Below, piece by piece: positions 7,067-45,438 of a stretch of DNA of 53,904 bases; positions within the stretch are counted from its first letter, which is position 1; the number at the start of each line of letters is the position of its first letter. A program made the translations under genes and the position numbers. Source of the stretch: Pseudomonadota bacterium (lineage in GTDB: Bacteria > Pseudomonadota > Alphaproteobacteria > Micavibrionales > UBA2020); NCBI GenBank assembly GCA_021805245.1, contig JAJZFS010000059.1:1-53904 (forward strand), read 5' to 3'. The notes under the pieces were generated by a model. That model ran no database searches. It was not told where the DNA came from and was given only the letters and a program-made list of their open reading frames with translations.

Positions 7067-7339
7067 ATGATCACTTCTACTCAACTACGGGCCGCCCGTG
7101 CCCTGCTCGGCATTGACCAGAAGCAACTGGCCAATATATCGGGTCTGTCGCTCCCGACGATTCAGCGCATGGAAACAAGCGATGATATTATTCGCGGCAA
7201 TGTGGACTCTCTCATGAAGCTGGTATCTGCGCTCGATGCGGCCGGAATCGAATTGATAGCCGAGGGCGCAAGCAGCATAAACGGCGGGCGCGGAATCAGG
7301 TTGAAAGATCCCGCCATGCCGACAGGAGGCACTCAGTAA
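7067..7339 (+). CDS. Small XRE-family HTH transcriptional regulator
   Basis: A 90-residue protein consisting almost only of one helix-turn-helix domain (residues 3-65): TQLRAARALLGIDQKQLANISGLSLPTIQRMET. The motif Q-x-x-LA-x-x-SGLS-x-x-T-I-x-R is the canonical Cro/CI recognition unit. Stand-alone proteins of this size and sequence are frequent in alphaproteobacteria. It ends 4 bases before the first gene of the hydrogenase-4-like operon and is read in the same direction from the AT-rich region, so it is likely co-transcribed with that operon and may control it. Target and effector are unknown. Confidence 0.85.
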   Translation: MITSTQLRAARALLGIDQKQLANISGLSLPTIQRMETSDDIIRGNVDSLMKLVSALDAAGIELIAEGASSINGGRGIRLKDPAMPTGGTQ

Positions 7340-7343
7340 ATAA

Positions 7344-9347
7344 ATGTCCATCGCGGCCCTGTTATGCTGTGTCGCCCTTTTTATCGCCCTGTCTCTCCTG
7401 AGCGCTGCGGTAAATCGTCTCTTCAATGCAACTATCATCATTTACTGTGCCTGCTTTGCTATTGCGCTTGTCATGTTGTGGGGCGGAGTTGTCCATCTGC
7501 TAACCCACGCATCCGACATGACGATCGTACTGCCGATAGGTCTGCCGTGGACCGGCGCGCATTTCAAGCTTGACGCGCTGGCGGCTTTTTTCCTTGTGGT
7601 CGTCAACCTCGGCGCGGCAACGGCCAGCTTTTACGCGCTGGGGTACGGGCGGCATGAAGAAGCGCCGCACCGCGTCCTGCCATTTTATCCCGCTTTTCTC
7701 GCCGCCATGAATCTCGTCGTGCTGGCCAATGACGCTTTCACGTTCCTGTTCTCGTGGGAGCTAATGTCACTCGCTTCATGGGCGCTGGTCATGGCGCATC
7801 ACCGCGAGAAGGAAAACGCACGGGCGGGATACATATACATTGTCATGGCAAGCTTCGGCACGCTGATGTTGCTGCTGGCCTTCGCCCTGCTGTCCGGACC
7901 GGGCGGGCATTACGTTTTCTCCGGCATGCAAGGCCACGTTCTGACCCCGTTGCGTGCCGCAGTCGTGCTGTTCCTTGTCCTGCTTGGCGCGGGCTCCAAA
8001 GCGGGGATTTACCCTTTGCACGTCTGGCTCCCGCTCGCGCATCCGGCGGCGCCGTCGCACGTCTCGGGACTGATGAGCGGCGTCATGACCAAGGTCGCGG
8101 TTTACGGTTTTATCCGCATCGTCTTCGGCCTTCTCGGCGGAACCGGCGAAGACGGTGGCATGGCCGTGCTTGCGCTCGGCGGCATAACCGCAGTGATGGG
8201 CGTTTTGTATGCGCTCCTGCAGCATGACCTCAAGAAGCTGCTCGCTTATCATACCGTGGAGAATATCGGCATCATTTTTATCGGCCTCGGCCTCGCGCTT
8301 GTGTTTCAGGCCGACGGCCACGCCGCGTTCGCCGCGCTTGCCTTCACCGCCGCGTTGTTTCATGTTTTCAACCACTCGCTTTTCAAGAGCCTGCTGTTTT
8401 TCGGCGCTGGCGCGGTGCAAACGGCGACCCGCACGCGCGACATGGAGCGCCTCGGCGGCCTGATCCACCGCATGCCGCAAACGGCTTTCGTCTTTTTGGT
8501 CGGGTGCGCCGCGATTTCCGCGCTGCCGCCGTTCAACGGTTTCGCCTCCGAGTGGCTGACGTTTCAGGCGATTATTCAGGGACCGGTCCTGACGCACTGG
8601 GGGCTGAAGACGCTGGTTCCCGTCGCAGGCGCGATGCTGGCGCTCGCCGCCGCGCTCGCCGCCGCCTGTTTCGTCAAGGTTTACGGTATCGTTTTTCTTG
8701 GCCGGCCGAGGACGGAGCCGGCCAAAAGCGCTGTGGAAACGGACAGATTTTCCCTGGCGACGATGTCCTTTCTCGCGCTCTTGTGTCTGCTGGCGGGAAT
8801 TTTTCCGGGGGTTTTCACGAGCGGTCTCACCCCTGCCGTCCATGAAATGACCGGCGCGCAGATGCCGCAGCATGCGATATGGCTGTCGCTCGTGCCGGTC
8901 TCTGCGGTACGCAGCTCTTACAACGGTCTTTTCATTTTTATCTTCATAGTTCTTGCAGCGGGGGTGGCCGCCTTTGTCGCACGCCGCTTCGGCGGCGGTG
9001 CGCCACGCCAAGCGCCAGCGTGGGACTGCGGCTTTCCGCTCGACGATCCCGCGACGCAGTATACGGCGGGGAGCTTTGCCCAGCCGATCCGGCGCGTTTT
9101 CGGCGGCCACCTCTTTCGCGCGTCCGCGCGCGTGGAGATGCCGCCACCCGGCAGTCTTGCTCCCGCGCGTCTTATTCGGGAATTGCATGATCTCGCCTGG
9201 GAGGAGATTTATAAACGGATAGCGGCGCGTGTCCTTTGCATTGCGGAACGCTTGAACCGCTTCCAGGTCCTGTCGCTCCGGCATTATTTAAGTATCGTGT
9301 TCTTCTGCCTGATTCTGCTTCTGATGGTGCTGACGCTATGGTTTTGA
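7344..9347 (+). CDS. HyfB/EhrA-like proton-translocating membrane subunit (NuoL family)
   Basis: 667-residue multi-pass membrane protein of the Mrp/NuoL/HyfB antiporter-like family. The Proton_antipo_M core shows NDAFTFLFSWELMSLASWALVM, GAGSKAGIYPLHVWLPLAHPAAPSHVSGLMSG and the discontinuous-helix block LQHDLKKLLAYHTVENIGII. It keeps the family Lys/Glu/His residues expected for proton pumping. The C-terminus has the HyfB-specific block APAWDCGFPLDDPATQYTAGSFAQPIRRVFG. It is the first structural gene of a six-gene complex whose large subunit lacks Ni-Fe ligands (see 12459). The ribosome site AGGAGG (7323-7328) lies inside the preceding XRE gene. The 3' end overlaps the next gene by 10 bases. 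Confidence 0.88.
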   Translation: MSIAALLCCVALFIALSLLSAAVNRLFNATIIIYCACFAIALVMLWGGVVHLLTHASDMTIVLPIGLPWTGAHFKLDALAAFFLVVVNLGAATASFYALGYGRHEEAPHRVLPFYPAFLAAMNLVVLANDAFTFLFSWELMSLASWALVMAHHREKENARAGYIYIVMASFGTLMLLLAFALLSGPGGHYVFSGMQGHVLTPLRAAVVLFLVLLGAGSKAGIYPLHVWLPLAHPAAPSHVSGLMSGVMTKVAVYGFIRIVFGLLGGTGEDGGMAVLALGGITAVMGVLYALLQHDLKKLLAYHTVENIGIIFIGLGLALVFQADGHAAFAALAFTAALFHVFNHSLFKSLLFFGAGAVQTATRTRDMERLGGLIHRMPQTAFVFLVGCAAISALPPFNGFASEWLTFQAIIQGPVLTHWGLKTLVPVAGAMLALAAALAAACFVKVYGIVFLGRPRTEPAKSAVETDRFSLATMSFLALLCLLAGIFPGVFTSGLTPAVHEMTGAQMPQHAIWLSLVPVSAVRSSYNGLFIFIFIVLAAGVAAFVARRFGGGAPRQAPAWDCGFPLDDPATQYTAGSFAQPIRRVFGGHLFRASARVEMPPPGSLAPARLIRELHDLAWEEIYKRIAARVLCIAERLNRFQVLSLRHYLSIVFFCLILLLMVLTLWF

Positions 9348-34990: not shown

Positions 34991-37900
34991 CTAATCCTCT
35001 AAGCCATCATCGATCCACGTTGGGGCACCACGTCCAAAGCGTTGAAGATGGACATTCTTGTCTCCTTCCACAAAATGCGCTGAGTAAAAGCTAGGCTGTG
35101 GATTATTGAATATGAGCTTTTTCAACCTGACAAGCCGCTGGTAGTCGGGCGTACATACCCATACCTCACCACTCGGATCGTTGATTTCTATCCTGTAGGG
35201 GCGGCCTGCGGGAGGGCGTGCGGCCTCTGGAGGAAGGTTGAGAAAACGTATAGATTTTTCTACTTCCCAGCGATGTGCGGGCCCGCTTAGAGCCTCGTAG
35301 TGAAACCTTTGCCAGAGGGCGGCTGTTTCTGCCGTAGGCCAATTTCCTGCCTTGGTAAGAGCAACAATCTTTTTACTTTTTAGCCACTCCTGCATCCCGC
35401 TGATGTCTACAAAATTCGCTTCTCCTGTGCGGACGGCGGCCATCGCGGCTCTGCGGGAAGGAAGTCCCGCACGAATAAGCATGGACATCATCATCTGTGG
35501 TACACCCGTTTCAAGAGACCCGGCACCGCCGCCAGCCACAATCTCTGGCGTCCAGCCCTGAGAGACCCGGCGCGTGCGTAATGCTTCCAATGCCCAAACT
35601 AGACGGTAAGAGAATACCTCCTCTACTACGCTCATGTTATCCGGTCCAATGACGTTCACATCTACCCCTGTAATCCATGCCTGTAATATTTCCTCCCAAT
35701 TTCCCGGCAGGGGGTTCTGAGCACTTGGCGCGAAGGGGCGAATAGTAAGGAGGCGACGAGCAAGGCCAATAAGAGCTACAGATAGATTTTCCTCATTTCC
35801 CTGAATGGCTGCGAGGTCGGCTTGGTCCAGTAGTCCAGCAAGCTCATCCGCCATAGCATCTAATGCAAGCCCAGCTTCTAGGCCAACCCCCATCGCATAG
35901 TGGCCCTTGCGAGCAGCAGGCGTCGTGGTATTCCAGATAAGGCGCGCCCGTGCGGCGAGTACAACTCGATGGTTATTTTGGGTTCCTTCTTTTTCGCGAG
36001 CAATCTGCCGCTGCCAGAGTGATCCTCGGAGAGCTTCGTCAAGGAGGCGTGGAAGGTCTGCACTTTCAGCATCAAATGCCTCTATTAACCCCAAAACGGT
36101 TGCATCCAGCTTCTCAACCAGATGATCTAGGGGCTCTCTGCCATCTTCTTCACCCTCATCATCGTTGCCTGCAACTTCCGTCCACCCTTCACGCGAGTTC
36201 ATGAGGTACTCGACAGCATCTTCACGTTCAAGAGTGCCATTATCGGCAAGACGCTGGATTATCTCGTTAATAATTTGAAAGAGACCACTTTGCAGAGTTC
36301 GGGATTTTGCAGAGGCGACAAGCTCCTTCCATTGATTTAAACGATATGCATGTTTATCAAAAATAACGTGAAGTATGAGTCCCTCAACGTCTACAAAAGC
36401 ACGCCCGGCACGACCTGCCACATTGGCAAATTCTTCTCCGGTGATGAGAGCACCAGACCTGACAAGATATGGAACCAATAGTACCGCCGCATTAATATTC
36501 AATCCTTGCGATAAAGTCGGAGAGGCAGCAATTACTTTGAGAGTGCCGTTGGACAAGAGTAATTCCAGTTCACGCAGAAAAGGTTTTGGCAGACCGCCGT
36601 GGTGGATGGCTAAACCGATCTTTAATGACTCCACTGCGGGATGGCCGTCTCCCAGCCACTCCCGGCCAACTTCGAGCGCCCGTTGTATAGTGGCGGGATT
36701 TTCTAGGAGAGACGGCAAATAGCCGCGATTGACCAGATCAAGAGCTACCTCCCCAAACCCCTCAACCCAATTCGCTTGAGTGATAAATATCAGCGTTCTC
36801 TTGCCCTGCTCAGCAAACTTCCACGCGGCAAAAAGGGAAAGGTCCTTTGCATCTCTGGGAAGAGACTTTTTTTGTCGCCCGCGCGCCGGAACTTCCTCGA
36901 CAAATTTTGCCAAGAAGGGGCCATCATTTTCTAGGTCGAATTTGAGTTTTGCGCTTGGGGCATGCCATGTCAGTGTACCGAAACGCTGGCGAGTTGGACG
37001 CCACGAAGATTTCACTGGCCCGCCTTCCACATCATGCCGAATCCACGCGGTCAAATCGTTTAGCTGCTCGCCATCCGGCAAAATCGCCGATAAGCAGACG
37101 ATACGGCGCTCTGCTGCATCCGGACGCAAAAGTAGTTTCTGAACAAGGATTTCGTAGCGAATTTCCCTCTCCGTCGGGCCGATCATATGCCCCTCGTCGA
37201 GGACGATAAGGCCCACATCGTCAATCAGGCTCGGATCGCTGCGCAATGCAAAATCAAGTTTCTCCGGCGTGGATATAATAATATCCTTTGACCGAAGGGC
37301 GTCTTCATCTCCGGCAGACACACCGCTGGCCCCATAAAGAGAAGAAACCGAAAATCCAAGCGGCGCAAAGGTTTTCCGAAAAGAACGTTCCGTCTGTGCA
37401 GAGAGCGCGCGTAGTGGCGTGACAATTAGTACCCGTTTTTGGGTAGATAATGTCATCAACGCCGCAATCTCGGCGACACGTGTTTTACCCGCGCTTGTCG
37501 GCAAGGCAACCACCATATCGTCAGTCACGTTACCGGCGCGGCGTGCAGCCTCAACCTGTGAGGGCCAAAGTTCGACTTCCGCAGTTTTTCTTGCATAGAG
37601 CGACACGAGAAAAAGCTCGCGTGCGTTTGTATAATTTGCCCCTCCTCCCGCAGGCGGTGTCTTCGGCAAATTTACATGCAGAGAGTCTTCCCAGAGATCA
37701 GTAATCAGGCTGAGGCATAAGCGCAGAAGCCACCACATGGTGATAACACTTGCGTCGCCAGCAAGTTTTACTCCGTCTTTAAAAATATTCTTGGCAGTTA
37801 CTACCAGGGCGTCATCGCCCGTTTGTAAGGCAAAATCAAAATAAGAGAGACCCCGGCAAACTGTAGAGTTGAGAATGATTGAGATTGCATCCTCTTCGTC

Positions 37901-38443
37901 TATAGCGTTTCCTTTCAAAGCAGCGGCAAGGGACTCGTCACTGTTCATGTCATTTTGAAGCCATGAGCTAGTGAAATCGCGCAGCCCTCCTAGATCGCGA
38001 AGAACGAGAAAAGTCAGCGCCTGCTCTGCGGGAGAAATATTTTCTCCATTTTCCCGCTGGTGAAAAATAGAATATGCGATAGCGGAATATCCAGCGAGGT
38101 GATAGGCCGTGCCCGCGATAGCGCGGTAGAAGCCGCGTTCAGGATGATCTGGAGCTTCATTGCGGACAAGGGCCTCAAAGGCTTTTGCCGCGTGTTCAAA
38201 GCCCTTTTGGCTAATGTCCGCCGATCCTGCCGCTTCTTTCAGTGCAAGCGCCGCACGCAGGATGGAGAAACCATAGTCCGCAAGATCGGTGTCGATGGAT
38301 GCCCCAAAGGGCGGAGCGTCTTGTGGTAAGGCACCTTCCTGCCGCATAAGAGACCATGCAGCGCCACGGTCCAGTAGCCGCCCACGGAAATCCTTTCTCG
38401 TTCGCAACGAGATAAATCGCTCAAGCTGCTCAGTCGTCTCCAA
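34991..38443 (-). CDS. hamB: HamB-like superfamily 2 helicase (Hachiman type)
   Basis: 1150 residues. A helical N-terminal region of about 290 residues precedes a Ski2-like helicase core: Q-like motif WPSQVEAA, Walker A ALPTSAGKT (to about 321), motif Ia VTPLRALSAQ, DEAH-type box LIVLDEGHM (about 416-419), then CLSAIL, TLIFITQANWVEGF, and motifs V/VI in ASPTLSQGLNINA and EFANVAGRAGRAFVD. The long C-terminal part (about 700-1150) has no motif I can name. It overlaps the HamA-like gene by 14 bases. Size, fold and partner match the Hachiman anti-phage system, in which HamB is the DNA-sensing helicase of a HamAB complex. Phage defence here is inferred from the family. Confidence 0.82.
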   Translation of the reverse strand: METTEQLERFISLRTRKDFRGRLLDRGAAWSLMRQEGALPQDAPPFGASIDTDLADYGFSILRAALALKEAAGSADISQKGFEHAAKAFEALVRNEAPDHPERGFYRAIAGTAYHLAGYSAIAYSIFHQRENGENISPAEQALTFLVLRDLGGLRDFTSSWLQNDMNSDESLAAALKGNAIDEEDAISIILNSTVCRGLSYFDFALQTGDDALVVTAKNIFKDGVKLAGDASVITMWWLLRLCLSLITDLWEDSLHVNLPKTPPAGGGANYTNARELFLVSLYARKTAEVELWPSQVEAARRAGNVTDDMVVALPTSAGKTRVAEIAALMTLSTQKRVLIVTPLRALSAQTERSFRKTFAPLGFSVSSLYGASGVSAGDEDALRSKDIIISTPEKLDFALRSDPSLIDDVGLIVLDEGHMIGPTEREIRYEILVQKLLLRPDAAERRIVCLSAILPDGEQLNDLTAWIRHDVEGGPVKSSWRPTRQRFGTLTWHAPSAKLKFDLENDGPFLAKFVEEVPARGRQKKSLPRDAKDLSLFAAWKFAEQGKRTLIFITQANWVEGFGEVALDLVNRGYLPSLLENPATIQRALEVGREWLGDGHPAVESLKIGLAIHHGGLPKPFLRELELLLSNGTLKVIAASPTLSQGLNINAAVLLVPYLVRSGALITGEEFANVAGRAGRAFVDVEGLILHVIFDKHAYRLNQWKELVASAKSRTLQSGLFQIINEIIQRLADNGTLEREDAVEYLMNSREGWTEVAGNDDEGEEDGREPLDHLVEKLDATVLGLIEAFDAESADLPRLLDEALRGSLWQRQIAREKEGTQNNHRVVLAARARLIWNTTTPAARKGHYAMGVGLEAGLALDAMADELAGLLDQADLAAIQGNEENLSVALIGLARRLLTIRPFAPSAQNPLPGNWEEILQAWITGVDVNVIGPDNMSVVEEVFSYRLVWALEALRTRRVSQGWTPEIVAGGGAGSLETGVPQMMMSMLIRAGLPSRRAAMAAVRTGEANFVDISGMQEWLKSKKIVALTKAGNWPTAETAALWQRFHYEALSGPAHRWEVEKSIRFLNLPPEAARPPAGRPYRIEINDPSGEVWVCTPDYQRLVRLKKLIFNNPQPSFYSAHFVEGDKNVHLQRFGRGAPTWIDDGLED

Positions 38444-39206
38444 GATTTTCGGCCTCCTCGTAGACGTCCGCTATGAAATCCGCATGATCCGCGATGTGTA
38501 TGTTAATAACTTCATGCGCGCGCGCATCATCGGCATCGGCGAGATCATCTTCGATAGCCTCAGGCGGCGCATTACCAGACAAGCTAAAAAACGCATGGGC
38601 TATACGATCCGCTGGAACTGCTTTATTGGCGACTTCATCACGGAGCTTTTTCCCCAATACCTCGTCCGCGCCACCGCGTTCAAGAAGTCGGTCAGCGACG
38701 AATAACAGAGAGCTTGGTGTAGGGCGTCCGCTGTCACGGTTAAGAGCCTTTCTTGCTTTCTTCACCGTTGCCTCACTGAGGTTTTTGCGACTTTTCGACT
38801 CTCCCTTCAACAGGCATAGGTTTTCATCATCATCTTGAGTAACGCCGATAAAATCATCGCCTCGAAGAGCCATCTCTCTCCCGTCCTTATAACGTAAGCG
38901 ACGGATAGGGACCTGAAATTCCAGATGGCGCTCTGTAAATTCTGTTGCAAGTATTTCTCCGAGATCACCTGACCGCGCTCTTTTTGTTCGTGGGAGGCGC
39001 TCGCGCAAGATGGCAGCCGCGCCGCCGTATCCGAGGCGCTCTACATCTTCGGCAATTCGGGTTAGGCAATCATAGTGCGAGCGCACGACTTCATGCAGGG
39101 TATCTTTAATCTGCTCTCGCCCATCTTCCTTCTCGGTCAGCTTCCATAACCTTTTACGGTTATCTTCCTCTTCGGAGAAGTCGCACCAATCTGTAAACAA
39201 AGTCAT
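38430..39206 (-). CDS. hamA: HamA-like nuclease (DUF1837, Hachiman type)
   Basis: 258 residues. The core reads SGDLGEILATEFTERHLEFQVPIRRLRYKDGREMALRGDDFIGV, then NLCLLKGESKSRKNL. The residues Glu84, Asp118/Asp119 and Glu136-x-Lys138 fit a PD-(D/E)xK nuclease arrangement, as known for HamA (DUF1837). No membrane or signal segment is present. In Hachiman the nuclease is held by HamB and released to degrade DNA when the helicase meets damaged or phage DNA. It is coupled on both sides: the start overlaps the RT stop by 4 bases and the end overlaps hamB by 14. Assignment rests on motif and helicase partner, not on a database search. Confidence 0.75.
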   Translation of the reverse strand: MTLFTDWCDFSEEEDNRKRLWKLTEKEDGREQIKDTLHEVVRSHYDCLTRIAEDVERLGYGGAAAILRERLPRTKRARSGDLGEILATEFTERHLEFQVPIRRLRYKDGREMALRGDDFIGVTQDDDENLCLLKGESKSRKNLSEATVKKARKALNRDSGRPTPSSLLFVADRLLERGGADEVLGKKLRDEVANKAVPADRIAHAFFSLSGNAPPEAIEDDLADADDARAHEVINIHIADHADFIADVYEEAENLGDD

Positions 39207-40606
39207 TTTCGTTCTCTAAATAAATTTTGATTCATGGACTGCTTTGGCGGAACCGCTGCCTTCTTTTTCGGGACCAGGCTGACGCTTGGGTATTTGAAGG
39301 GGGTGCGGGGTATTTTTTTTAACTGGGACACGCCGAGAAGCTCCCCATGATGCTCGGCATTGACCGCTTCACGAACCGTTTTGTAGGCTCCCAGGTAATC
39401 GCGCACGTACTCCGATACTTTTTGATCCAGGTGGCCGAGCGTGAGGCCGTCGTTGCAAAACCAATAATGCTTTGCCCAGCCATCCACGGTTCCATCGATA
39501 CGCTTGAGCGTCCCAAGGAGGCTACCAGTCCTCGATACGGCCTGCCCGTTCTTTCTTCCTATGAGGGCCTGCTTTCCTTCACGGAAGGTGTTCTCTATCT
39601 TCTCCAAAAACCGCTCTTTGGACTTATCCGAGGGCCGGATGATGCCAGGAGAGATGTGGATGCCAAGGAAATCAAAACCGTCATCGATAGACTGGCCGCC
39701 CTTTGAGCTCTTGGCCTTGGACAATTCCATCTCAAGGGCTTTCAAAAGCTCGATAGATTTTTTCAGGCGCGCGTCGGCGGCTTTCTGGGTGGGTGCGATG
39801 ATGATGAAGTCATCGATGTACCGGATACAGCGGCAGTCGCCTTCGTTCATCTTCTTGTCGAAATCGGCAAGGATGATATTGCCGAGGAGCGGGGAAAGGG
39901 AGTTGCCTTGAGCTACTCCCAAATCCTCCGTTGGAAAATCATCCGCATATTGTTTTATTTGCTCGATGTTTGACAACTCTACATCAATCGCCTGTCCAAG
40001 AAAGTCCATGAACTCCTGGTCCTTCACCACGTCCCCAATGATCGCGGTGACTGTTGACTTCCGGATGCGGGTGAAGAAGGAGCTTATGTCGGCGCAGGCG
40101 ACATGGCGGCCCCCTTGATCGATGGCTGTGAGAACCGCTTGAATGGCAGCAGGAACCGCAGAGATACTTTTTGAACGCTCTGTCCGCGAAGCGGGAGACT
40201 GAGGCCGATCGCTTCTGATGCCCCCGAAGCTGAACTCGGTTTTGCTATAGGGTTTAAGTCCTTCTATATCCAGCAGGACGTTCAGTAACGCTCGTTGGAC
40301 AATCCGGCTTTCTACCGGAGCAAGAACGATTGGCCTGATTTTCTGTCTGCCGCCGTCTTTGGGAGGCTTATCTTTCGGAATAGGCACACCGGCTGCCGGT
40401 GGAAATTTGAAGGTTTTGCGGGCGAGCTTGTTTTGAAGCGAGCGTAGGCGCTTCTGCGCATCGATCGCAAAGTCTTCAAGCTCAAGCCTTACTTTATCGG
40501 ATTTGGACGATCGCCCGTTTTCTTGGATCGTCTGCCACGCAGACTCCAGGTTCCGAATGGTGCGGAGTTTTTCGAGATGAGTCTTTTTCTTTTTAATCTT
40601 AGACAT
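39203..40606 (-). CDS. Reverse transcriptase, stand-alone, class undetermined
   Basis: 467 residues. RT motifs in order: PIPKDKPPKDGGRQKIRPIVLAPVESRIVQRALLNVL (RT1-2), Asp173 in CADISSFFTRI (motif A), VAQGNSLSPLLGNIILADFD (motif B, residues 231-250), YIDDF at 263-267 (catalytic YxDD) and FDFLGIHISPG (motif D/E region). Motif B is QGxxxSP, unlike the SQ of diversity-generating retroelement RTs. I see no retron VTG motif and no group II intron maturase or endonuclease domain after the thumb. It therefore looks like one of the unknown-group or defence-related RTs. The first gene of the RT-hamA-hamB operon, with a 4-base ATGA overlap to hamA. Its ribosome site is weak. Confidence 0.85.
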   Translation of the reverse strand: MSKIKKKKTHLEKLRTIRNLESAWQTIQENGRSSKSDKVRLELEDFAIDAQKRLRSLQNKLARKTFKFPPAAGVPIPKDKPPKDGGRQKIRPIVLAPVESRIVQRALLNVLLDIEGLKPYSKTEFSFGGIRSDRPQSPASRTERSKSISAVPAAIQAVLTAIDQGGRHVACADISSFFTRIRKSTVTAIIGDVVKDQEFMDFLGQAIDVELSNIEQIKQYADDFPTEDLGVAQGNSLSPLLGNIILADFDKKMNEGDCRCIRYIDDFIIIAPTQKAADARLKKSIELLKALEMELSKAKSSKGGQSIDDGFDFLGIHISPGIIRPSDKSKERFLEKIENTFREGKQALIGRKNGQAVSRTGSLLGTLKRIDGTVDGWAKHYWFCNDGLTLGHLDQKVSEYVRDYLGAYKTVREAVNAEHHGELLGVSQLKKIPRTPFKYPSVSLVPKKKAAVPPKQSMNQNLFRERK

Positions 40607-40650
40607 AGTCTGGTGGGTCCTATCAGTTCACCTTACCCGTTCGACGCAGG

Positions 40651-40775
40651 ACTGAACACCGCAGCGGTTCCTTTCGGCCCGTGCCGCGCAATCAAGGTCC
40701 CGGCTTTCACCGTCGCCTCGCCGTAGTAGGTTAACTGTGGCCCGACGGGGTTGCCGCCTGCCAAGCTGCCTAATA
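40651..40775. repeat. 125-bp direct repeat, copy 1
   Basis: Identical base for base to 41024-41148, same orientation, separated by 248 bases. It starts 45 bases upstream of the RT start codon. On the minus strand it can be read through in two frames, and it forms the end of a 72-codon open frame (40633-40851), but there is no good coding evidence. Together with copy 2 it fills much of the RT leader. Confidence 0.9.
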
Positions 40776-40825
40776 TAGTCAGTTGGATCAGAAGTATTAG
40801 GTAAACTAATGCCCCTAGATCGCGC

Positions 40826-40847
40826 CGTGCCGAGTTGGCACGTTTTT
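40826..40847 (+). terminator. Intrinsic terminator between the two 125-bp repeats
   Basis: CGTGCC-GAGTT-GGCACG (40826-40842) is a perfect 6-bp hairpin followed directly by TTTTT (40843-40847) on the plus strand. It would stop a plus-strand transcript running away from the RT gene through copy 1, so a short RNA antisense to the RT leader is possible. Confidence 0.55.
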
Positions 40848-41023
40848 GCATGTGTGGCCCATCATACTCTCCTTAAATAGCCTAGCGTTTTTAAGCACTT
40901 AGTAAAGGAAAATCGTGAAGCGCCGCCTGCCTGCCTGGCCGTGCAACAAAAGCTAGTAGCCGTCTGATAGGAGCCCTTAACGGTAAAGGTTGCGGCTAAC
41001 GTAAGTTTCGCGAACAGGTAGGT

Positions 41024-41148
41024 ACTGAACACCGCAGCGGTTCCTTTCGGCCCGTGCCGCGCAATCAAGGTCCCGGCTTTCACCGTCGCCTCGCCGTAGT
41101 AGGTTAACTGTGGCCCGACGGGGTTGCCGCCTGCCAAGCTGCCTAATA
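41024..41148. repeat. 125-bp direct repeat, copy 2
   Basis: Perfect copy of 40651-40775. Sequences differ immediately outside on both sides (CAGG versus AGGT on the left, TAGT versus GAGG on the right), so the repeat edges are sharp. The absence of any difference implies recent duplication or copying. There are no A-specific changes between the copies. Confidence 0.9.
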
Positions 41149-41280
41149 GAGGTCATAATTGGTATTTTAGGACGATTCTGGATTTGGTCAAGCAAGAAGA
41201 GATGCTATTGGACTGAGTGTGCCGCCTGCACTTGAACCTGATAAAACCTCACTTTAAAAGGGCCTCCAGAAAAAGGTCTC

Positions 41281-41619: not shown

Positions 41620-41910
41620 ATGAAAAAGACTGCTTTTATTTTTCTCACTGCGCTGATGCTCACCGGCTGCACGGCGCAGCAACTGGGCGTGAGCACGAAT
41701 GACCCCGATGCCCGCCTTTCCGCCGTGCGGATGCGGGAACTTGGGGACAACAAGTATATGATCTCCTGCGTTGACTCTAACCAATATTGCGAGGACCTCG
41801 CGGCCAATGTCTGCGGGGGTAAATTCAAAATCAGGAGCGCGTGGGGACAAGCCGGGACGGGCTTTAACGACTCGCGCCGGACGATTGTCGTGAAGTGTAC
41901 GGGGGGATAA
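41620..41910 (+). CDS. Small predicted lipoprotein, unknown function
   Basis: 96 residues. MKKTAFIFLTALMLTGC is a lipoprotein signal peptide with lipobox LTGC, so the mature protein would start at Cys17 and be lipid-anchored. The mature part (TAQQLGVSTNDPDARLSAVRMRELGDNKYMISC...) contains further cysteines (VDSNQYCEDLAANVCGG; VVKCTGG) that could form disulfides in the periplasm. The ribosome site GGAGG is well placed. It sits right behind a strong terminator and is followed one base later by a small membrane-protein gene. I do not recognise a family; island cargo. Confidence 0.7.
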   Translation: MKKTAFIFLTALMLTGCTAQQLGVSTNDPDARLSAVRMRELGDNKYMISCVDSNQYCEDLAANVCGGKFKIRSAWGQAGTGFNDSRRTIVVKCTGG

Positions 41911-41911
41911 A

Positions 41912-42223
41912 TTGATAAACGCGCTCATAGAGTTCGTAGCTGGTTTTTTCGTCTACATGACGATAGGCTTGGTTATTCTATTAATTTACACAAAGCTGAA
42001 ACCTAAACCAGAACGGATAACGGCGAAAGAGAGCTTCATGGCGAGCTTACGTCTTTCGTGCATTATTTCAGTGCCGATTTCATTTATTGGAACACTGTAT
42101 CAATTTGCTCCCAAGGTTTTTGCTCAAACGCTTGGCCTTATACTCGCAGGGGTAACGGTGACCCTTTGTTCAATGATCTTGGCCTTTATTAAAGCGAAGT
42201 TTGGAAGTAAGGATAAAAAGTAA
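41912..42223 (+). CDS. Small predicted membrane protein, unknown function
   Basis: 103 residues from a TTG start behind a run of six Gs (41901-41906). There are three hydrophobic segments: FVAGFFVYMTIGLVILLIYT, LSCIISVPISFIGTLYQFA and TLGLILAGVTVTLCSMILAFI, with basic loops (KLKPKPER; KAKFGSKDKK). This is probably an inner-membrane protein. It follows the lipoprotein gene by one base and is likely co-translated with it. An internal ATG at codon 16 would cut into the first helix. No family recognised. Confidence 0.55.
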   Translation: MINALIEFVAGFFVYMTIGLVILLIYTKLKPKPERITAKESFMASLRLSCIISVPISFIGTLYQFAPKVFAQTLGLILAGVTVTLCSMILAFIKAKFGSKDKK

Positions 42224-43120: not shown

Positions 43121-43963
43121 TTATTCAGCGTTCATGATCTGTTGCGCGGCTTCACAGGCGTTATATATATTCTTCTTTGTAAAAACTTGTACTTCCGAGC
43201 CCGGTTCAAAATCTTCCTTTTCTGTCCAAGAAAGTATTTTCTCGACAAATCTATGGCCGGGAGTGATAGCAACAGGCTCTCCGTTCTGCGATTGATCGAA
43301 GTGCCGTTCGACAGTAAATTTCTTTTTTGACAGTGCTTCGTATGCGCGCGCGATCTCGGCCACATACTCGTTCAGAAGACGGTGTGATGGACGTCCACGC
43401 CCCTGCGCGTGTTCTTCCTCAATGGAAATACATAGTGCTTGGAGATTGGCCACGGCCCTGATAGTGCTGAGATAGCTCTTCCTGTAAGGGTAAGTGGGAT
43501 CATCATAGTGGTCAGGTTCGGAGTAATTCTCAAAAAATGATTTAATGGATTCCTTCCCTAGAGTTTTCTGGAGTTCCAGTGCCGCGTCCGATACCGAGCC
43601 AATCTCCTCAAGAAATTCCTTTCTCTTTGTTTTCGAGAGTTTCTTGCGCCTTAATTCGAGCGCCGCATACATTCGTTCAAAGCTCTTCGGCTCGCGTGAG
43701 ATTCTGACGTTACGCATAGCTTTATTTATGTATTCCACCTTCTCCGCCATGGCGAGTTCGCCCGGCGTATAGGGTAGCATGGCCGCTATTGTCTCTGGAC
43801 CGGCAGCTTCTGGCTTGTTCGCCGCAAGTCCCATTAACAAATACCTCAGCTTGATCTTGGTCCATTTTGGATTGGACACATTTAATTCTTCGATAAGTGT
43901 CTCAAGAAAGGCATCATCCTCGGCGGAAAGAGGAATGAGCTTGAGGCGCGACTTGGATGGCAT
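43121..43963 (-). CDS. Hypothetical island protein next to integrase
   Basis: 280 residues, soluble and mostly helical by composition (RKKLSKTKRKEFLEEIGSVSDAALELQKTLGKESIKSFFENY; LNEYVAEIARAYEALSKKKF). The start region SRLKLIPLSAEDDAFLETLIEELNVSNPKWTKIKLRYLLMGLAANKPE has no motif I recognise. It begins two bases after the integrase stop, on the same strand, so it is almost certainly co-transcribed with the integrase. It may take part in recombination or element control, but this is only positional inference. Its stop falls next to the CACCCC...GGGGTG repeat. Confidence 0.65.
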   Translation of the reverse strand: MPSKSRLKLIPLSAEDDAFLETLIEELNVSNPKWTKIKLRYLLMGLAANKPEAAGPETIAAMLPYTPGELAMAEKVEYINKAMRNVRISREPKSFERMYAALELRRKKLSKTKRKEFLEEIGSVSDAALELQKTLGKESIKSFFENYSEPDHYDDPTYPYRKSYLSTIRAVANLQALCISIEEEHAQGRGRPSHRLLNEYVAEIARAYEALSKKKFTVERHFDQSQNGEPVAITPGHRFVEKILSWTEKEDFEPGSEVQVFTKKNIYNACEAAQQIMNAE

Positions 43964-43965
43964 GT

Positions 43966-45195
43966 TTATCCTGCAACCTTCTGAACGGCGTCGGCATGAA
44001 AGGGGATAATTTCAGCGCCATCGTTCATTCTGAATTTGTCCAAGATGTCGGCATAGTCCTGCATCATCTTTTTACGCTCAAGGAGATACTCTGCACGATT
44101 ATAGGCGGATCGGACTTTATCCTCATCCTCATGCGCGAGCTGGCGCTCAATAACGTCTGGCTTATAGCCTTTTTCGTTCAGAATGGTGCTGGCAAGCGTC
44201 CGAAAGCCGTGACCTGTCATGCGGTTCTTATATCCCATGCGGCGCAGCGCCATTAACACCGTGCCATTGCTGATATGCTTGGACTTGCTGGCCCCGCTGA
44301 AAAATAGAAATGGTCTTGCTCCAGTTATTTTCTGTAGCAGTCTCAAAACGTCCAGAGTTTGACGGGCAAGAGGGACAATATGAGGGCGCTTCATCTTCAT
44401 CCGTTCTGCGGGAATATGCCACTCAGCTCTGTCCCAGTTAATTTCTTCCCACTTTGCGCCGATCAGTTCGCCTGTGCGAACGAAAGTCAGGGAAAGCATC
44501 TGCATAGCGATTTTGCCGAGATCATTGTCCCTGGCTGTAATTTTTTGCAGAAGAGTCGGTATTTCTTCCATGGGAAGGCAGGCATGATGTTTCTTCTTGG
44601 ACGTTGGAAGGATGTCTCTCAGGTCAGCCGCAGGGTTATGCTCGCAGAGGCCGCGCTGCGCGGCATAGCGGAAGACTTGGCTGATATACTGCTTCATGCG
44701 CTTGGCTGTGACGATAGTGCCTTTCTCGCCGATCTTTTCGATGACCTTGACCACGTCGGGAATAATGATTTCCTTGATCGGCAAAGAGCCAATCATAGGG
44801 AAAACATGCTGTTCCATGCGGGTTAAGATTTGGTCGTGGTATTTGCCGTTTAATTTGCTTTCTCTGAGGTCATGCCAGCGGCGGGCAATACTCTCGAAGG
44901 TATTCTCAGCCTCGCTCATGCGGCGCAGCTTCTGGGCCTGCCTGACGCGGCGAGGATGGTGCCCAGCGTCGACCTGCTCTCTGGCTTCATCACGTAGTTT
45001 TCGAGCTTGGGCGAGACTAATGGCGGGGTATTTGCCCAAGGCGAGGGTTTGCGCCTTGCCGTTGTAGCGATATCGCCAGCGCCAGAGTTTGCCTCCGGCA
45101 GGGCTAATTACGATGCTGAGGTTGCCGCTATCCACGATTCTATAAGGAATGGTCTTGGGTTTAGCGTTCTTTATTTGCAGTTCGGTGAGAGGCAT
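43966..45195 (-). CDS. Tyrosine integrase of the P4/DUF4102 type
   Basis: 409 residues from the ATG at 45195 (the frame extends to 45273, but MPLTELQIKNAKP is the family start). The N-terminal arm-binding DUF4102 domain (LSIVISPAGGKLWRWRYRYNGKAQTLALGKYPAISLAQARKLRDEA) and the core-binding SAM-like domain precede the catalytic domain. The catalytic set is visible: Arg in TFVRTGELIGAKW, HGFR in MTGHGFRTLAST, His in RQLAHEDED, and the nucleophilic Tyr in VRSAYNRAEYL. It lies 153 bases from the 3' end of tRNA-Ser, the usual target arrangement. The last part of an operon leading into the gene at 43121. Confidence 0.93.
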   Translation of the reverse strand: MPLTELQIKNAKPKTIPYRIVDSGNLSIVISPAGGKLWRWRYRYNGKAQTLALGKYPAISLAQARKLRDEAREQVDAGHHPRRVRQAQKLRRMSEAENTFESIARRWHDLRESKLNGKYHDQILTRMEQHVFPMIGSLPIKEIIIPDVVKVIEKIGEKGTIVTAKRMKQYISQVFRYAAQRGLCEHNPAADLRDILPTSKKKHHACLPMEEIPTLLQKITARDNDLGKIAMQMLSLTFVRTGELIGAKWEEINWDRAEWHIPAERMKMKRPHIVPLARQTLDVLRLLQKITGARPFLFFSGASKSKHISNGTVLMALRRMGYKNRMTGHGFRTLASTILNEKGYKPDVIERQLAHEDEDKVRSAYNRAEYLLERKKMMQDYADILDKFRMNDGAEIIPFHADAVQKVAG

Positions 45196-45291
45196 GACGG
45201 GGGCTCCGAGGATAAATATATACACAAATCTACACCCACCCTTTCTGGCTGGTGTTGAATCTCTCTGGAGCATGTTGGATTAAAACGCAAG

Positions 45292-45346: not shown

Positions 45347-45363
45347 AATGGCGGACAGGGAGG
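45347..45363. repeat. Candidate right attachment site (tRNA-Ser 3' end)
   Basis: AATGGCGGACAGGGAGG includes the complement of the tRNA 3' acceptor strand and CCA. It matches 34848-34863 with one base deleted at the left end. Integrase-proximal, as expected for islands that rebuild the tRNA on integration. Confidence 0.5.
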
Positions 45364-45438
45364 GATTCGAACCCTCGATAGGCTTACACCTATACTAGTT
45401 TTCGAGACTAGCGCCTTCAACCACTCGGCCACCTGTCC
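45349..45438 (-). tRNA. tRNA-Ser (anticodon CGA)
   Basis: Read on the minus strand, the 90-base sequence begins GGACAGGTGGCCGAGTGG and ends GGTTCGAATCCCTCCC then TGTCCGCCA, with CCA encoded. The acceptor stem GGACAGG/CCTGTCC pairs fully. The anticodon arm is CTAGT-CTCGAAA-ACTAG, giving anticodon CGA (reads UCG). The long variable arm (TATAGGTGTAAGCCTAT) is the class II feature of serine tRNAs. Its 3' end is the insertion point of the island. Confidence 0.97.

Follow-up and report, generated by a model that had tools for sequence, protein, structure and literature searches.

The window, which is the whole 53,904-nucleotide stretch of contig JAJZFS010000059.1 that was analysed, carries genes for a reverse transcriptase (RT), HamA and the helicase HamB on the minus strand, inside an integrase island with an AlpA-type regulator and a tRNA-Ser gene (Table 1). 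The three open reading frames (ORFs), their lengths, and the overlaps of 4 nt (RT/HamA) and 14 nt (HamA/HamB) were as a sequence-only reading of this DNA had given them. Its naming of HamA and HamB as the Hachiman pair agreed with the Pfam and PADLOC matches, and DEAD/helicase domains were present in HamB. The two genes form a normal Hachiman pair, which is adjacent and has a 14-nt overlap, as was also found in relatives. Upstream of the RT, outside the coordinates covered by that reading and absent from it, a 128-nt direct repeat (R1 and R2) encloses a segment U. The R copies are 373 nt apart in the window, U is 245 nt long, and R2 ends 44 nt before the RT start.

Table 1. Features of the RT locus and its island in the window.
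Feature	Position	Strand	Remarks
HamB helicase (Hachiman)	34991..38443	minus	1150 aa, TTG start; PADLOC HamB 1507 bits
HamA (Hachiman)	38430..39206	minus	258 aa; Pfam HamA 73.5 bits, PADLOC HamA 334 bits
RT	39203..40606	minus	467 aa; RVT_1; assigned to the G2L4 family
alpha'	40631..40650	minus	pairs with alpha
Unjoined N-R2 ORF	40633..40851	minus	72 aa from ATGCAA
R2, downstream copy of repeat	40651..40778	minus	direct-repeat comparison
N part of hidden ORF	40779..40848	minus	basic residues, then hydrophobic segment
Conserved core, CAAAAAC A-run and hairpin GUGCC-loop-GGCAC	40825..40851	minus	probable -1 frameshift site
Shine-Dalgarno and ATG of hidden ORF (0 frame)	40860..40874	minus	start-phase analysis
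C part of hidden ORF	40862..41023	minus	53 codons and stop, in frame with R1; no obvious own start
P2, putative promoter TTTACT-N16-TAGGCT inside U	40879..40906	minus	pattern match
alpha, start of U	41009..41023	minus	pairs with alpha' after R2; duplex energies, compensatory pairs
R1, upstream copy of 128-nt direct repeat	41024..41151	minus	family-conserved
P1, putative sigma70 promoter TTGACC-N16-TAAAAT	41164..41191	minus	directly upstream of R1
Tyrosine integrase of island	43966..45273	minus	adjoins tRNA-Ser 45349-45438

The relation of the RT to the Hachiman pair was examined through the gene neighbourhoods of their relatives. The RT-family alignment was scanned over 84,980 genomes, which gave 80 loci, and viral contigs added 8 within the family score range; a single-protein scan of the viral contigs gave no matches. 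These 88 relatives (genomes and viral contigs) were 28-58% identical to the RT. Neither HamA nor HamB was found near any of the 88 in the surrounding DNA (flanks of at most 8 kb or to the contig end), and a related RT was upstream of none of the nine HamA relatives with flanking DNA. Where annotated, other genes stood upstream of the HamA relatives, toxin-antitoxin genes among them; PrlF-YhaV and DUF6088-AbiEii lay immediately upstream in the close HamA relatives L009 and L012. On three Candidatus Manganitrophus plasmids (CP114559, CP114562, and CP114554), a HamA-like stretch (42.6% identity) was located under a gene annotated as a SAVED domain-containing protein.

The sequence-only reading had proposed a composite defence operon, RT-HamA-HamB, headed by the RT. 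The 4-nt RT/HamA overlap in the window speaks for such an operon, but the order recurred at 0/88 RT loci and 0/9 HamA loci, leaving the RT beside HamAB only here, and the composite was rejected as very improbable. What stood of that interpretation was the Hachiman pair and the probable synthesis of cDNA by the RT; the RT as a Hachiman component did not, and a misleading RT-Hachiman composite is thereby removed. As the RT relatives were free of HamAB and the HamA relatives of the RT, the RT-HamA overlap, found only in the window among the loci examined, is on present evidence a local arrangement. The Hachiman pair is best explained as a separate defence system sharing the island of the RT. Judged by the sequences around its relatives, the usual partner of the RT is the upstream R1-U-R2 element and not HamAB.

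The RT was identified from profile, fold, and motifs. A profile built from 23 RT-family members matched PDB entries 9d5x and 9d4s (G2L4 RT) with 454 and 452 bits, respectively, the next best match scoring 137, and the top four PDB matches of the RT structure model (pLDDT 90) in Foldseek were G2L4 chains. A YIDD active site was located at residue 263, and YIDD in place of YADD in RT5 is the stated hallmark of G2L4 (PMC4244168). An extended stretch leads up to an AQG motif at residue 232, the region in which G2L4 RTs have the RT3a plug insertion. By sequence profile and modelled fold, the RT is a member of the G2L4 family. Six family RTs (L019, L094, L100, L102, L113, and L114) carried a fused C-terminal RNase H domain (PF00075).

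The sequence-only reading had named placement in a mobile-intron clade as evidence against its proposal. By these comparisons the RT is group II intron-like yet not a mobile-intron RT. It scored 130 bits with TIGR04416, the group II RT/maturase equivalog, for which the cutoff is 300. No group II intron RNA was found, the Rfam scan of the window giving one tRNA only, and in a tree of a small sample the RT family was separate (support 1.0) from the UG17, group II, and retron-type RTs. That reading had also pointed to the DRT and UG classes, of which UG17/DRT10 was the nearest in PADLOC; this assignment was rejected, as the RT scored 122 bits against 439 for a true UG17 member. A SLATT partner, characteristic of DRT10, was absent from the nine window ORFs scanned. 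The score of 44.2 bits with NCBIfam Drt2 (cutoff 390) showed that the RT is not DRT2.

In P. aeruginosa, the G2L4 enzyme is described as free-standing, with a role in double-strand break repair by microhomology-mediated end joining, and strong strand annealing is reported for the solved G2L4 RT (PMC12337344). In the G2L4 literature searched, neither an upstream RNA or repeat nor a hidden ORF was mentioned. The RT has in common with 9d4s/9d5x the protein family by profile, the fold, YIDD, and the lack of intron RNA; however, those enzymes are described as free-standing and active in end joining, whereas an upstream R1-U-R2 element is present here.

The R1/R2 pair was found in 50 of the 72 RT-family loci with at least 700 nt upstream, and the layout across the family was R1 (about 130 nt), U (199-352 nt), R2, a short tail, and the RT. 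Within a locus, R1 and R2 were 99.0% identical (identical copies in 23 of 49 loci), compared with about 75% identity between R and the nearest other locus. The complete record of a P. aeruginosa plasmid (L008) had R copies of 132 nt with 100% identity. Within-locus identity far above that between loci indicates, at the sequence level, concerted evolution. A DGR-like TR/VR arrangement was rejected because the R copies are near-identical and not mutated.

Pairing of alpha with alpha' had a duplex energy of -22.7 kcal/mol, compared with -17.5 kcal/mol with swapped partners (p = 8e-13); it was also better than with shuffled partners and was supported by compensatory changes. A strict P1 promoter pattern was present near R1 in 17 of 49 loci, compared with 4 of 264 control windows, and a P2-like pattern was present in 39 of 49. 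The published description of G2L4 as a free-standing DNA-repair RT (PMC12337344) would suit a reading in which the RT is a repair enzyme acting alone and the repeats upstream of it are neutral tandem duplications. We find this hardly credible, as layout, spacing, and pairing recur alike across Alphaproteobacteria, Gammaproteobacteria, Acidobacteria, and Bdellovibrionales.

The element also holds an open frame that spans its repeats. A conserved core in U, CAAAAACGTGCC-loop-GGCAC, sets a frame running through R2, and the conserved AAAAAC motif before R2 fixes the frame tested. In 43 of 43 loci this frame ran without a stop through R and for 39 codons or more of C; of the other frames, 6 of 86 did so (p = 4e-28; as the loci are related by descent, this and the other p-values given here overstate independence). 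With one locus per sequence cluster, the counts were 15/15 and 2/30 (p = 4e-10), and composition shuffles gave an expected openness of about 26% per locus. The Shine-Dalgarno (SD)-start codons of N were in a single phase relative to the core-set frame in 39 of 40 loci (binomial 2e-17), from which a -1 shift at the A-run is needed to enter that frame. A consistent SD-start for R1-C was not found, occurring in 11 of 43 loci at scattered places. The hidden ORF carries a stop codon in most loci. In L088, which has the arrangement R-U-R-U-R, it was contiguous from SD-ATG to stop (7336-7629, 97 aa); a single-sequence model of this protein had a pLDDT of 41.

Codon-position and BLOSUM tests gave a positive coding signal in N and a weak one in R; in C they were negative, with no codon-position bias found. 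Amino-acid conservation beyond the neutral expectation was +0.12 for C and +0.5 for R, compared with +2.34 for the RT, and a Pfam search with the joined N-R-C protein gave no match. With C negative, the case for coding depends on the avoidance of stops and the phase of the start codons. Perhaps the RNA itself is constrained in C, or C is non-coding. A plain small gene consisting of N-R2 was rejected since it leaves the open C part unexplained. The frame is open through both N-R2 and R1-C, and C has no consistent start; N-R-C thus reads as a gene stored permuted. From its sequence, it appears to be a small gene that is intact only once R1 and R2 are joined.

The same element may be read as a structured, non-coding RNA that serves the G2L4 RT as cofactor or template, giving DRT10-like repeat DNA, with the open R-C frame being incidental. 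Strong RNA-level conservation with helices, the absence of a codon signal in C, and the report of Class 2 DRTs with ncRNA templates (PMC13174585) are in line with this. The frame openness, the fixed start phase, the SD-ATG, and the hydrophobic N part with its coding-like signal are not, and we judge a purely non-coding role unlikely, though worth serious consideration.

The R1/R2 pair was absent in 22 of the 72 loci, many of which resemble a single R with the layout P1-R-RT, as expected from R1xR2 recombination. Assembly collapse may account for single-R loci, given that many contigs end no further than about 225 nt upstream of the RT. L066 and L067 are one locus that appears twice, at either end of a single chromosome record (CP051228); the two were 99.96% identical, one with R-U-R and the other with R and U missing (373 bp), which reflects either population heterogeneity or assembly collapse. 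R1 and R2 could also act as DNA: by recombining homologously they would excise an R-U circle with an intact gene and leave a single R, while the RT would only keep the repeats alike or repair the break. The P1-R-RT layout, the difference between the two chromosome ends, and the reported action of G2L4 in end joining (PMC12337344) are consistent with such excision. It leaves the conserved alpha:alpha' RNA pairing and the RNase H fusions unexplained, however, and it draws on single-R loci that may be collapses; we regard it as improbable.

For the permuted gene, a precedent is DRT2, whose RNA template holds neo in hidden, permuted form (PMC12039810). By analogy with the assembly of neo by DRT2, we consider the chances about even that the G2L4 RT copies the upstream RNA into tandem-repeat cDNA, in which the hidden gene is assembled. 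Starting from the repeat architecture, its conservation in the family, the alpha pairing, and the stop-free N-R2 and R1-C frame, all of which were observed in the sequences, we infer the following course from cDNA synthesis and joining to expression, frameshifting, and effect. The cognate substrate would be an RNA, 5'-R1-alpha-C-P2-N-R2-alpha'-3', from the RT's own upstream region. The RT, which probably makes cDNA, would start near the alpha' end of R2 and copy through U into R1. The nascent cDNA (complement of R1) would re-anneal to R2, giving tandem (R-U)n cDNA, in which every R junction would join N-R to C and rebuild a gene of about 110-120 aa. The rebuilt gene might be expressed from P2 with an unproven -1 frameshift at CAAAAAC (or a 1-nt slip). 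Its product would be a small protein, hydrophobic at the N terminus; by analogy with DRT2/Neo, it may arrest growth as an effector produced on demand. The RNase H fusions suggest an RNA template, and the strand-annealing activity of G2L4 (PMC12337344) fits the need for R-R annealing.

As in DRT2/neo (PMC12039810, PMC11100668), an RT is combined with an upstream RNA, the gene appears to be stored permuted and readable only after repeat joining, and a promoter and ribosome site stand beside the joined gene. DRT2 repeats are about 120 nt, divisible by 3, and stop-free, whereas the unit here is 321-485 nt with its own stop codon; the repeat periods modulo 3 were spread over 16, 19, and 14 loci, with no preference for multiples of 3. 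The coding strand here is the RNA strand, a duplicated joint of about 130 nt takes the place of ACA, and the start codon is in another frame. DRT10/UG17 performs A-B-A' repeat addition (PMC12632851) and has a similar layout in its RT-linked RNA, but A is 2-4 nt there and about 130 nt here. The A-B-A' mechanism of DRT10 and telomerase can be likened to the proposed R1-U-R2 copying.

Several findings count against gene assembly, namely the lack of codon bias and near-zero amino-acid conservation in C, the out-of-frame start codon, the published G2L4 repair function without any RNA (PMC12337344), and the loci without an R pair. The wider proposal, that G2L4 RTs are a gene-assembly system in which a -1 frameshift is a second lock on the permuted gene, and thus a second gene-writing RT family besides DRT2, is put forward tentatively, at somewhat less than an even chance.

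For G2L4, crystal structures and a proposed repair role are available, and a natural RNA substrate was not found in the literature searched. The conserved structured RNA with its 130-nt duplicated joint before most members is a candidate substrate, and what G2L4 copies would thereby become a directly testable question. Should the permuted ORF be assembled, DRT2 would not be alone in synthesising genes by reverse transcription, and another class of genes would have been overlooked by ordinary gene finders.

Other ORFs were recorded in the window. A 280-aa protein (43121-43963) between the integrase and the AlpA-type regulator had no convincing counterpart in Pfam, PHROGs, PADLOC, or NCBIfam. 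At 41620-42223 on the plus strand, opposite to the RT element, a small lipoprotein-like ORF is followed by a 103-aa membrane-like ORF.
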